Positions 12,528 through 43,820 of a stretch of 64,000 nucleotides of DNA are shown here, one piece after another. The translations under genes and the position numbers were made by a program. The notes under the pieces were generated by a model. The model was given only the letters and a program-made list of their open reading frames with translations. It was not told where the DNA came from and searched no databases. This stretch comes from Sphingopyxis sp. LC363 (lineage in GTDB: Bacteria; Pseudomonadota; Alphaproteobacteria; Sphingomonadales; Sphingomonadaceae). The DNA is taken from contig NZ_JNFC01000016.1 in NCBI RefSeq assembly GCF_000756385.1, forward strand, positions 1 through 64,000, read 5' to 3'. Position 1 is the first letter of the stretch; each line of letters starts with the position of its first letter.

Positions 12528-13301
12528 ATGGCGGAAGACGCCCAAGTTTCTCTCGATGCCGAGCATCGCCGCATCGGCGGGATTCCGCTGCGCGCCTTTG
12601 CGCCCAATGCGATCACGCTGCTCGCGCTTTGCTCGGGGCTGACCGGGGTCCGTTTTGCGATCGATGGCGATTGGGCGGCGGCGATAACGATGATCATCGT
12701 CGCCGGGGTGCTCGACGGAATGGACGGACGGATTGCGCGGCTGCTGCGCGCGCAAAGCAAGTTCGGCGCCGAGCTCGATTCGCTCTCCGACGTGATCGCC
12801 TTTGGCGTCGCGCCGGCGATGATCCTGTTCTTCTGGTCGCTCAACGCGGCGCCGAAATTTGGCTGGACCGCCGCGCTCGCGCTCGCCGTGTGCTGCGCGC
12901 TTCGGCTCGCGCGTTTCAATTCGCGCATGGATGCCGAATTTCAGCCGCACAAGTCGGCAGGCTTCAACACCGGCATTCCTGCACCGGCGGGGGCGGGACT
13001 GTCGTTCGTGCCCATCTATCTGTGGCTGACGACGGGCAACGACCTGTTTCGCGAATGGTATGTCGTGATGCCGTGGGCGCTCGGCATTGCGATGCTGATG
13101 ATCTCGGCGATCCCGACCTACAGCTGGTCGTCGATCCGGCTGCGCCGGTCGTGGCGCCTGTTCGCTCTCGCGGGGGTAGGCCTCCTCGGCGCTGCGCTTG
13201 TCACCGCGCCCTGGCTGACCTTGCTTGCGGTCTGTGCGCTCTATGCCGCGACGCTGCCTTTCGGCCTCGCTAGCTATGCGAAGGTCAGGCGGCGCGGCTG
13301 A
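12528..13301 (+). CDS. pssA: CDP-diacylglycerol--serine O-phosphatidyltransferase
   Basis: 257 residues with a complete CDP-alcohol phosphotransferase motif: Asp63, Asp66, Gly67, Ala70, Arg71, Gly80, Asp84 and Asp88, all with correct spacing. Several membrane segments follow, ending near the C-terminus. It makes phosphatidylserine, the substrate of the Psd product encoded two bases upstream. The last 17 bases overlap the 3' end of the convergent small membrane-protein gene. Confidence 0.96.
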   Translation: MAEDAQVSLDAEHRRIGGIPLRAFAPNAITLLALCSGLTGVRFAIDGDWAAAITMIIVAGVLDGMDGRIARLLRAQSKFGAELDSLSDVIAFGVAPAMILFFWSLNAAPKFGWTAALALAVCCALRLARFNSRMDAEFQPHKSAGFNTGIPAPAGAGLSFVPIYLWLTTGNDLFREWYVVMPWALGIAMLMISAIPTYSWSSIRLRRSWRLFALAGVGLLGAALVTAPWLTLLAVCALYAATLPFGLASYAKVRRRG

Positions 13302-13545
13302 TCGCCGGCCGCATCCGCGCCGCGGCGCGGATCGGGCGCGGGGCATCGCGGCGCGCCGGTGAACGGCGCAGCGTCACCTTGTGCGGAGCGGGGCCGGGTT
13401 GCGGCGCGGCGTCGGCCGGGAAGGCGCCTTCGCCGAGCAGCGCCGACAGAATCGCATCTTCATTATTCTTGAGCATGGCGAGGATCACCGTGACGCCGAG
13501 CCCCGCGGCGAGGGCGAAGAGAAGAGCGGCTGCGACCTGAACCAT
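13285..13545 (-). CDS. Small single-pass membrane protein with basic tail, candidate SOS-regulated
   Basis: 86 residues. One hydrophobic segment spans about 3-23 (starting VQVAAALLFALAAGLGV), then a short acidic stretch NNEDAILSALLGEG, a proline/alanine linker and a C-terminal region rich in arginine (TLRRSPARRDAPRP). The start at 13545 has a good AAGGA ribosome site nine bases upstream, supporting a real gene. A GAAC-N7-GAAC site sits about 74-88 bases upstream in the correct orientation and overlaps a TTGAGA -35-like hexamer. No known family recognised; small inner-membrane SOS proteins of other alphaproteobacteria (for example Caulobacter SidA) act on cell division, which is a hypothesis here. 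Confidence 0.65.
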   Translation of the reverse strand: MVQVAAALLFALAAGLGVTVILAMLKNNEDAILSALLGEGAFPADAAPQPGPAPHKVTLRRSPARRDAPRPIRAAARMRPAISRAA

Positions 13546-13618
13546 GATCTTGTCCTTCCGGCTTTCTTGTGCGAAACCTTCGTAATCAGCGACGGTTTTC
13601 GTGGGATTTTTGTTCCAT

Positions 13619-13633
13619 GTTCCCGTTTTGTTC
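13619..13633 (-). promoter_or_regulatory. Candidate LexA (SOS) box
   Basis: On the leftward strand the site reads GAAC-AAAACGG-GAAC, a perfect alphaproteobacterial LexA direct repeat with a seven-base spacer. A third GAAC follows three bases later. TTGAGA overlaps the first half-site and could be the -35 element, so bound LexA would block the promoter of the 86-residue gene. Eight fixed bases are expected by chance about once per 65 kb per strand, so the case rests on position and orientation. Confidence 0.6.
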
Positions 13634-13723
13634 TCAAGTCTTTTGCGACGAACGGAGTCGCTTTATCGCCGAACCGAGTCCGTCACGCGCGCTCGATTGA
13701 GCGCGAAAAGGCGCCGACACCCC

Positions 13724-13752
13724 TTGCTTTTGGCGGCCAAGGCGGCTAACGG
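13724..13752 (+). promoter_or_regulatory. Candidate promoter of rpsB
   Basis: TTGCTT (13724-13729), a 17-base spacer and TAACGG (13747-13752) give a plausible sigma-70 pair. Transcription from about 13759 would give a leader of close to 100 nucleotides before the rpsB start. Confidence 0.45.
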
Positions 13753-13856
13753 GCCGCCCATTCCACATGGAAGGCGCACATACCGGTGCCGGGATCATCT
13801 CTTCGCGGATGCCTCGGTTCTTGCTTTCCAGAGGACTAACCGGAAGGAGAAAGACT

Positions 13857-14708
13857 ATGGCGGCACCTGTCGTCACGATGCAGAATCTTATCGAAGCTGG
13901 CGCCCACTTCGGCCACCAGACCCACCGTTGGAACCCGCGCATGAAGCCGTATATCTTCGGCGCGCGCAACGGCATCCACATTCTCGACCTGTCGCAGACC
14001 GTGCCGCTCTTCGCGCGCGCGCTCGACTTCATCGCCTCGACCTCGGCCGCCGGCGGCAAGGTGCTGTTCGTCGGCACCAAGCGCCAGGCGCAGGGCGCGA
14101 TCGCCGATGCGGCGCGTGCGTCGGGCCAGCACTTCGTCAACCACCGCTGGCTGGGCGGCATGCTCACCAACTGGAAGACGATCTCGGGTTCGATCAAGCG
14201 CCTCAAGACACTCGAAGAGCAGCTCTCGGGCGACACCTCGGGCCTCACCAAGAAGGAAGTGCTCAACAAGACCCGCGAACGCGACAAGCTCGAGCTCAGC
14301 CTCGGCGGCATCCGTGACATGGGCGGCATTCCCGACGTGATGTTCGTGATCGACGCGAACAAGGAAGAGCTGGCGATCAAGGAAGCCAACGTCCTCGGTA
14401 TCCCGGTCGTCGCAATCCTCGATTCGAACGTCTCGCCCGACGGCATCGCTTTCCCGGTTCCGGCGAACGATGATGCCGCGCGCGCCATCCGCCTCTATTG
14501 CGAAGCGGTTGCCCAGGCGGCAACGCGCGGCGGCCAGCAGGCCCGCGCGAACCGCGGCGAAGATCTCGGCGCCGCGGTCGAGCCCGCCGCCGAAGCCGCG
14601 CTGACCGAAGAAGCGGCCCCGGTTGCCGACGCCGCTGCTCCGGTGACCGAGGACGAGCAGGTCCCGGCCGAAGCCGCCGCCGAAACCGAACGCCAGAGCG
14701 ACGCCTGA
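13857..14708 (+). CDS. rpsB: 30S ribosomal protein S2
   Basis: 283 residues beginning [20 protein letters not shown], fixed by a strong GGAAGGAG ribosome site; the frame is open upstream to 13767. The S2 signatures [13 protein letters not shown] and the [12 protein letters not shown] stretch are present. Residues about 240-283 form an alanine/glutamate-rich acidic extension beyond the usual S2 core, common in alphaproteobacteria. It is the first gene of the run that continues with tsf, pyrH and frr. Confidence 0.98.
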
Positions 14709-43293: not shown

Positions 43294-43308
43294 GAACATA
43301 GAGGGAAC
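43294..43308 (+). promoter_or_regulatory. Candidate LexA (SOS) box
   Basis: GAAC-ATAGAGG-GAAC is a perfect direct repeat with seven-base spacing, 17 bases upstream of the start of the 164-residue gene. TTGATT lies two bases before the first half-site and may be the -35 hexamer. Orientation and position fit LexA control of the rightward gene. Confidence 0.65.
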
Positions 43309-43325
43309 ATTCTGGAGTCCCGCCT

Positions 43326-43820
43326 ATGTCCGCTGCCGTCGATCGCGCCTATCGCCACCATCCGAAAGCAGCGCGCTATCATTCGTGCGTCGAGGCCGGC
43401 GGCGCCGCGCTGAAACTCTATCATCTGACCGCCCCCGACGCGCCGGTGCCGGACGATGTCAAGACGCTGGCGGCGCAGTGGTTCGCGGAGCAGGCGCCCG
43501 CGACGCTGACCGAAAATGATTGCGGCTTCGTCATCCTCCACCGCTGCGGCGCCGATTTCTATTTCCTGCTCGTGTCGGTGTGGCGCGGCTCGAACGAGCT
43601 GTGGGAAGCGGTCTGGTACCGGCATGGAGACATGCCCGCCTTCGTGCCCTTCGACGCGGCCTATCCGCCGCAGCCGGGCGTGGTGCGCCCGACCTTCTGT
43701 GTCTGGGAGCTCGGCATCGTCGCGCACGAAAGCGCGGCGTGGGCCCGCTATCTCGGTTCGCCGCGCGACGATGCCGCGCGGTCGCGCTGGGTTGATGACA
43801 TCTTCGAAGGCGCGGTGTAG
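43326..43820 (+). CDS. Conserved-looking protein of unknown function, candidate SOS gene
   Basis: 164 residues, no signal peptide or membrane segment. It is rich in tryptophan and tyrosine (WFAEQAPATL, FYFLLVSVWRGSNELWEAVWY, FCVWELGIVAHESAAWARYL), with two cysteines. GGAG nine bases upstream of the ATG is a good ribosome site. I do not recognise the family. A perfect LexA-type direct repeat precedes it, so it may be induced by DNA damage. A GTG-started DJ-1/PfpI gene follows 43 bases later and may be in the same transcript. Confidence 0.75.
   Translation: MSAAVDRAYRHHPKAARYHSCVEAGGAALKLYHLTAPDAPVPDDVKTLAAQWFAEQAPATLTENDCGFVILHRCGADFYFLLVSVWRGSNELWEAVWYRHGDMPAFVPFDAAYPPQPGVVRPTFCVWELGIVAHESAAWARYLGSPRDDAARSRWVDDIFEGAV

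Follow-up and report, generated by a model that had tools for sequence, protein, structure and literature searches.

What does a small open reading frame encode that points away from the gene for ribosomal protein S2, ends inside a gene of phospholipid synthesis and lies behind a repeat of the LexA type? The question is raised by a stretch of 64,000 nucleotides from Sphingopyxis sp. LC363, referred to here as the window. In this region psd (phosphatidylserine decarboxylase, PF02666; 11788..12525, +) lies upstream of pssA (12528..13301, +), whose name is taken from the initial annotation of the window and whose Pfam matches (PF01066, PF08009) support a CDP-alcohol phosphatidyltransferase. The divergent neighbour is rpsB (ribosomal protein S2, PF00318; 13857..14708, +). 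Between them, on the minus strand, an ORF of 86 amino acids occupies 13285..13545 including the stop codon, with its ATG at 13545 and its stop at 13287-13285; sequence, orthologues and an AlphaFold2 helix identify it as encoding a single-pass membrane protein whose N-terminus is hydrophobic and whose tail is basic. The good ribosome-binding site and the convergent overlap with pssA that had been ascribed to this ORF are both present: an AAGGA motif (13553..13557, -) precedes the ATG by 7 nt and is retained almost throughout the 39 rows of alignment A3, and the overlap amounts to 17 nt (13285..13301, both strands), the ORF stop lying opposite the pssA codons GTC-AGG. On the other side of the intergenic region, a sub-threshold match to the Rfam rpsB leader RF01815 (13764-13857, +; 28.7 bits for a cut-off of 40) directly precedes rpsB.

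The operator and promoter region

LexA of Alphaproteobacteria recognizes a direct repeat of GAAC or GTTC with a spacing of 7 nt. Such a repeat, GAAC-N7-GAAC, is found in the promoter region of the ORF at 13633-13619 (-), where it reads GAACAAAACGGGAAC and stands 88 nt ahead of the ATG; the conservation counts for this box are 30/30, 47/47 loci and 44/59 family regions. Taken by itself, the window gives the repeat no significance: it has three occurrences for 1.73 expected, and a count of three is reached in 26 of 100 shuffles. Its conservation across relatives is far beyond chance. The box is perfect, 80-91 nt ahead of the ATG, in all 47 loci of a named collection, which are nearly all labelled Sphingopyxis, the remainder being unclassified sphingomonads or proteobacteria, and which partly repeat the 36 same-genus genomes considered below. 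Because the box is perfect in every one of these loci, the eight half-site columns are 100% identical; identity is 81% in the spacer, 80% in the upstream flank and 69% in the downstream flank.

The box is overlapped, as initially described, by the hexamer TTGAGA (13637-13632, -), a probable -35 element in which TTG is conserved in 100% and the following A in 98% of the 47 loci. The promoter of the genome's own lexA likewise reads TTGAGAAC. At a 17-nt spacing from TTGAGA, the stretch TGGAACAAA (13609..13617, -) could serve as an extended -10 element; seven of its nine columns are conserved at 91-100%, the remaining two at 77% and 53%, and the alignment of the 47 loci places the corresponding TGnAACrAA at -10 spacing. 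TTGAGA and TGnAACrAA would thus be promoter elements with the operator between them. A consensus scan of 13200-13900 scored no sigma-70-like promoter and left the candidate -10 unrecognized. The initial annotation had also drawn attention to a third GAAC. This motif is present (13615-13612), but its spacing is wrong for a LexA half-site and its G is kept in only 77% of loci, so that it cannot be counted among the conserved elements of the operator; a role within the -10 region is more likely.

Two further elements of the region deserve mention. The sequence TTCGTCGCAA (13643-13652, -), located 10-19 bases upstream of the box, has columns conserved at 81-100% in the 47 loci and could be part of the promoter that serves rpsB on the opposite strand. 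A conserved 5′ hairpin GAAACC...GGTTTC, spotted by eye, is not predicted by RNAalifold.

The SOS motif of the genome

The extended pattern GAACAN6GAACA occurs 20 times in the genome of the strain, versus three times for a reversed control pattern. Genes near these boxes include recA, an SRAP gene, two genes for radical-SAM proteins and one for an S24 peptidase, along with several others that are not usual SOS genes. The genome's own lexA carries TTGAGAACGATAGTGGAAC upstream, so the same motif is found at both lexA and recA. An imuA-like protein at locus L050 was recognized by eye and has no Pfam match at 1e-5. Taken together with the conserved box, these occurrences make it almost certain, as far as a prediction from sequence can go, that the 86-aa gene is under SOS (LexA) control.

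Expression data exist for a relative. During anoxic growth of S. granuli TFA, the lexA, recA, imuAB-dnaE2 and SRAP genes are reported to be induced (PMC6472365); the passages of that RNA-seq study naming induced SOS genes make no mention of a gene of the 86-aa type (PMC6472365).

Several boxes of the genome (L031, L032, L035, L047, L048 and others) adjoin genes that are seldom linked to SOS, for example those named by eye as encoding an SDR oxidoreductase, a VOC protein and a 2′-5′ RNA ligase-like protein (the last with no Pfam match at 1e-5). The window itself holds a second SOS-type box, GAACATAGAGGGAACA (43294-43309, +), 16 nt ahead of the ATG of a 164-aa ORF (43326-43820, +). This ORF has no Pfam or NCBIfam match and is possibly another LexA target of no named family.

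Conservation within the genus and across the family

A protein search finds the 86-aa protein in 33 of 36 same-genus genomes, its own included. Two of the three misses (G015 and G017) still have, at the end of pssA, the box together with a small membrane ORF that has diverged (L184, L185), and the third (G021) has no pssA match. A further genome of the genus, G316, has neither the box nor a comparable ORF at its locus (L186). One weak match outside the genus (G045, E 3.5e-4) contains three internal stops and was taken as chance. NCBI taxonomy assigns Sphingopyxis to Sphingopyxidaceae; the family sampled for comparison is what we take to be the Sphingomonadaceae of GTDB.

A profile search with the Sphingopyxis alignment recovers the protein from no more than 10 of 397 genomes of the family, in 2 of 96 genera, and for this reason position was used in place of sequence. 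The survey covers 59 genomes from 58 genera; rpsB was found in all 59, and all 59 upstream regions were read. GAACN7GAAC occurs on the strand divergent from rpsB in 44 of these regions, compared with 1/59 for the GTTC orientation, 3/59 for CAAGN7CAAG and 10/1180 for random Markov sequences. In 44 of the 59 genomes pssA is detected beside rpsB, and at every one of these 44 pssA-rpsB loci a small membrane ORF converges on pssA and overlaps it by 17-107 nt. Under a slightly stricter ORF rule the counts are 44/44 on this strand, 0/44 on the other strand and 3/880 in random sequences. The box is perfect in 42 of the 44 loci and has one mismatch in the other two (L104 and L139); the perfect boxes of the 44 rpsB regions comprise these 42 loci together with L107 and L146, two loci of special interest discussed below. 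The conservation of box and gene in other sphingomonads, on which the initial annotation had made its LexA reading depend, is thus borne out in most genera examined.

A box lying between two divergent genes could in principle serve rpsB, the ORF being incidental, and the good conservation of TTCGTCGCAA upstream of the box is compatible with such a role. The loci in which the two neighbours are separated decide against it. In 13 rpsB loci without pssA and the ORF, two of them cut short by contig ends, a perfect box is never found (0/13), L157 showing a one-mismatch repeat. When pssA was sought elsewhere in these 13 genomes, G084 gave no match and the locus of G066 was left out, leaving 11 relocated pssA loci; a perfect box lies near the pssA end in nine of them (L188, L189, L190, L192, L193, L195, L196, L197, L210). 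Across the 44 loci, with the box nearest to the ORF taken where there are several, the distance from box to ORF also varies less than that from box to rpsB (sd 25 < 47). The box therefore tracks the ORF and pssA rather than rpsB, and a LexA box for rpsB, rejected on these grounds, is scarcely credible as an explanation.

The box is accompanied by a membrane ORF overlapping pssA in 8 of the 11 relocated loci, the ORFs of L192, L193 and L210 being found only under a looser rule. In L196 the perfect box is followed by just a 35-aa non-overlapping ORF, L187 has the ORF without the box, and L194 shows neither a box nor a comparable ORF in the 383 nt beyond pssA. Two pssA matches were left out: L209, which has an internal stop, and L202, the first piece of the pssA match of G110, which is represented by its second piece, L210. 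The counts of members exclude four hydrophobic ORFs of pssA-less rpsB loci (L137, L158, L159, L160) as well as ORFs of neighbouring genes at pssA (L186, L191, L198, L204, L207). In other families of the same order, the box is absent from 22/22 rpsB loci and from 10/10 pssA loci (one with just 63 nt beyond pssA), and the overlapping small ORF was not seen. The survey places the predicted gene at the 3′ end of pssA in most of the family.

The stop codon inside pssA

The ORF stop lies at the same place in 43 of the 44 loci, opposite the pssA motif Y-x-K/R-V/I-K/R-R. When L145, whose stop is in another frame, is left out of the codon count, the arginine at that position of pssA is encoded by AGG in 23/23 cases, versus 19/786 for arginine codons at other sites of these pssA sequences (Fisher 2e-33). 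Two codons earlier, a comparable K/R position has AGG in 3/23 (6e-10). As the genera are related, these p-values overstate independence, a relatedness that the internal control shares. The fixed register of the stop and the invariant AGG indicate that the end of the predicted ORF is under selection. That the gene seldom leaves pssA and that the proteins end in RAAA can both be explained by the overlap itself; a conserved C-terminal RAAA acting as a functional tail was discarded, being explained by the K-V-R-R motif of pssA on the opposite strand.

Two loci show what happens when the overlap is lost. In L107 (genome G065), the ORF comes directly after psd (PF02666); the locus has lost pssA, and the genome yielded no close pssA match, although it holds two PF01066 relatives. 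In L146, pssA and the ORF are separated by a gene for an Asp/Glu racemase (PF01177). Both loci keep the box and the ORF. The loss of pssA at L107 also raises the question of the substrate source of psd, in a genome with two other PF01066 genes.

These exceptions bear on the proposal, already made in the initial annotation, that SOS-induced transcription runs antisense into pssA and lowers phosphatidylethanolamine synthesis. An overlap of 17-107 nt in 44/44 pssA-rpsB loci would allow such an effect at the RNA level, and a scan of 13200-13900 found no terminator-like site. However, purifying selection acts on the N-terminal half of the protein, selection also maintains the stop codon, and L107 and L146 retain box and ORF without an overlapping pssA. 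A main function in antisense control of pssA is therefore hard to uphold, and the proposal, weakened by these two loci, is now very improbable.

The same neighbourhood could suggest an SOS-induced adjuster of the envelope or its lipids, acting for example via PssA/Psd or membrane stress signalling, or another membrane role outside division. The psd-pssA neighbourhood is near-constant and the overlap conserved, as such a role would predict. Yet the overlap makes the two genes hard to separate, so their linkage needs no functional cause, and L107 retains box and ORF in a genome with neither pssA at the locus nor a close match to it elsewhere. A lipid or envelope function accordingly appears improbable, if less so than an antisense effect.

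The protein and its relatives

AlphaFold2 predicts a helix over residues 2-27 (block pLDDT 91, 95 and 86 over residues 1-30), a short helix over 29-36 and a tail without predicted structure; hydropathy and this model agree on a small protein with one membrane helix. Neither the window protein nor any of eight further members scores above cut-off against Pfam or NCBIfam, in agreement with the original description of a single-pass membrane protein of no named family. Most members have 70-111 amino acids and a few are shorter. Within the family, the stretch preceding the helix carries no net charge on average and 47 of 48 members have a positive tail (mean +6.6), so by the positive-inside rule the basic tail is predicted to be cytoplasmic.

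The ratio pN/pS, calculated on 47 sequences with the partial L088 left out, is 0.23 for residues 1-43, 0.67 for residues 44-76 and 0.84 for residues 77-86, near or in the overlap. On these values selection acts on the predicted membrane helix and on the segment behind it. The same part links distant members: the profile of the Sphingopyxis set (A1) and that of 13 sequences from other genera (A5) match over the helix and the following segment with a probability of 98% (E 2.3e-13). A second set of 12 sequences from other genera (A4) has the consensus L-A-D-S-x-x-R-G behind the helix; its profile shows no detectable homology to A1 (6%) and a weak link to A5 (40%). As A4 and A1 lack detectable sequence homology, one function shared between them would follow from position, box and architecture, and common descent of A4 with the other sets is suggested by position, overlap register and box. 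The comparisons thus show a real, selected gene for a small protein of predicted membrane type behind a conserved SOS-type operator.

Comparison with known SOS membrane proteins

Small membrane proteins that respond to DNA damage are described in several bacteria. SidA of Caulobacter crescentus is a LexA-controlled small inner-membrane protein that blocks division through FtsW, and SidA and DidA are both described as damage-induced membrane division inhibitors (PMC4211646). SidA resembles the 86-aa protein in being alphaproteobacterial, small and located in the inner membrane, LexA control being predicted here from the box; it has 29 amino acids, whereas the protein studied here has 86 and a basic tail, and the two are set side by side by description, not by sequence. 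DidA, also of Caulobacter crescentus, has 71 amino acids and one transmembrane helix and is damage-induced, and its ORF is described as overlapping the end of an ORF annotated in a sister strain (PMC4211646), which recalls the overlap with pssA. DidA is SOS-independent and driven by DriD, whereas the 86-aa gene has a LexA box.

In Gram-positive bacteria, SosA of Staphylococcus is an SOS-induced division inhibitor with a single transmembrane segment and, as reported, no clear homology to other Gram-positive ones (PMC6851548), and YneA of Bacillus is a damage-induced membrane division inhibitor (PMC13396833). Like the present family, SosA and YneA have one transmembrane segment and are conserved by position more than by sequence; the conserved part of SosA is described as the membrane-adjacent stretch, as in the 86-aa protein (PMC6851548). 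Differences exist as well. The SosA and YneA genes commonly stand beside lexA (PMC6851548), whereas the 86-aa gene stands beside pssA; the C-terminus of SosA is predicted outside and the basic tail of the 86-aa protein inside; YneA has a LysM domain and the 86-aa protein is without a Pfam match. SulA is a different case: no PF03846 match exists anywhere in the genome, and the 86-aa protein has no Pfam match at all.

Among known SOS proteins with a single transmembrane segment, the division inhibitors SidA, SosA and YneA appear closest by analogy, given the single segment and, for SosA and its kin, positional conservation. Assuming SOS control, the analogy makes inhibition of division the probable function, with modest confidence.

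The main competing analogy is with membrane toxins such as TisB and DinQ of E. coli, in which an SOS-induced helix inserts, membrane potential and ATP fall, growth slows and persistence is favoured. TisB and DinQ peptides are shorter than most members here (70-111 aa), and behind the helix the present proteins carry a further conserved segment. A toxin would be consistent with LexA control and with a single hydrophobic helix, and DinQ is described as an SOS-regulated single-transmembrane peptide that depolarizes the membrane, TisB being named as similar (PMC3567139). The two differ from the present case in being short type I toxins with antisense RNA, a class that also has an inhibitory 5′ structure. 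In the present family none of the six pairs predicted by RNAalifold covaries among 39 sequences (0/6), so no structured leader is supported. The helix of the window protein, moreover, carries no charged residue. A toxin of this type is unlikely on this evidence.

A proposed mechanism

The reading preferred here is that of a single-pass membrane effector repressed by LexA and induced in the SOS response, most likely a division inhibitor of the SidA/SosA type; it is held by a narrow balance of confidence. We infer LexA binding, induction, topology and the divisome target as follows. LexA would bind the GAAC-N7-GAAC box overlapping the TTGAGA promoter element and keep the gene off. Upon DNA damage, RecA-triggered cleavage of LexA would release the gene, and a small inner-membrane protein would be made with its N-terminal helix in the membrane and its basic tail in the cytoplasm. 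The helix and the segment just after it would be the working part, which most likely would bind a membrane protein of the divisome, such as one of the FtsW/FtsI/FtsN group. Septation would thereby be delayed until the DNA is repaired, as with SidA in Caulobacter and with SosA and YneA in Firmicutes.

A broader form of this proposal can be offered tentatively, with slightly less confidence than would be needed to prefer it: a family-wide, fast-evolving SOS checkpoint protein, LexA-controlled, single-pass and conserved by locus, that would arrest division in sphingomonads, its gene anchored by a stop codon internal to pssA over at least 40 genera.

Implications for sphingomonads

Among the literature matches listed, with subscription journals, preprints and supplements outside their scope, none deals, in its title or the opening of its abstract, with an SOS division inhibitor in sphingomonads or the 86-aa gene. 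The present analysis points to one locus, which can be found by the 3′ end of pssA in most genera examined although its sequence drifts beyond profile detection; since it can be found by position, the question of a sphingomonad SOS division inhibitor becomes directly testable. The conserved overlap and the rare codon forced on a lipid-synthesis gene reveal a hidden small gene, and the approach could find others. If the proposal is true, the stop codon set in a fixed register inside pssA would mean that a lipid-synthesis gene and a checkpoint gene can hardly drift apart. Most sphingomonad genera examined have a predicted small membrane protein behind a conserved LexA switch, which, by analogy with known inhibitors, may be their damage-induced brake on division.
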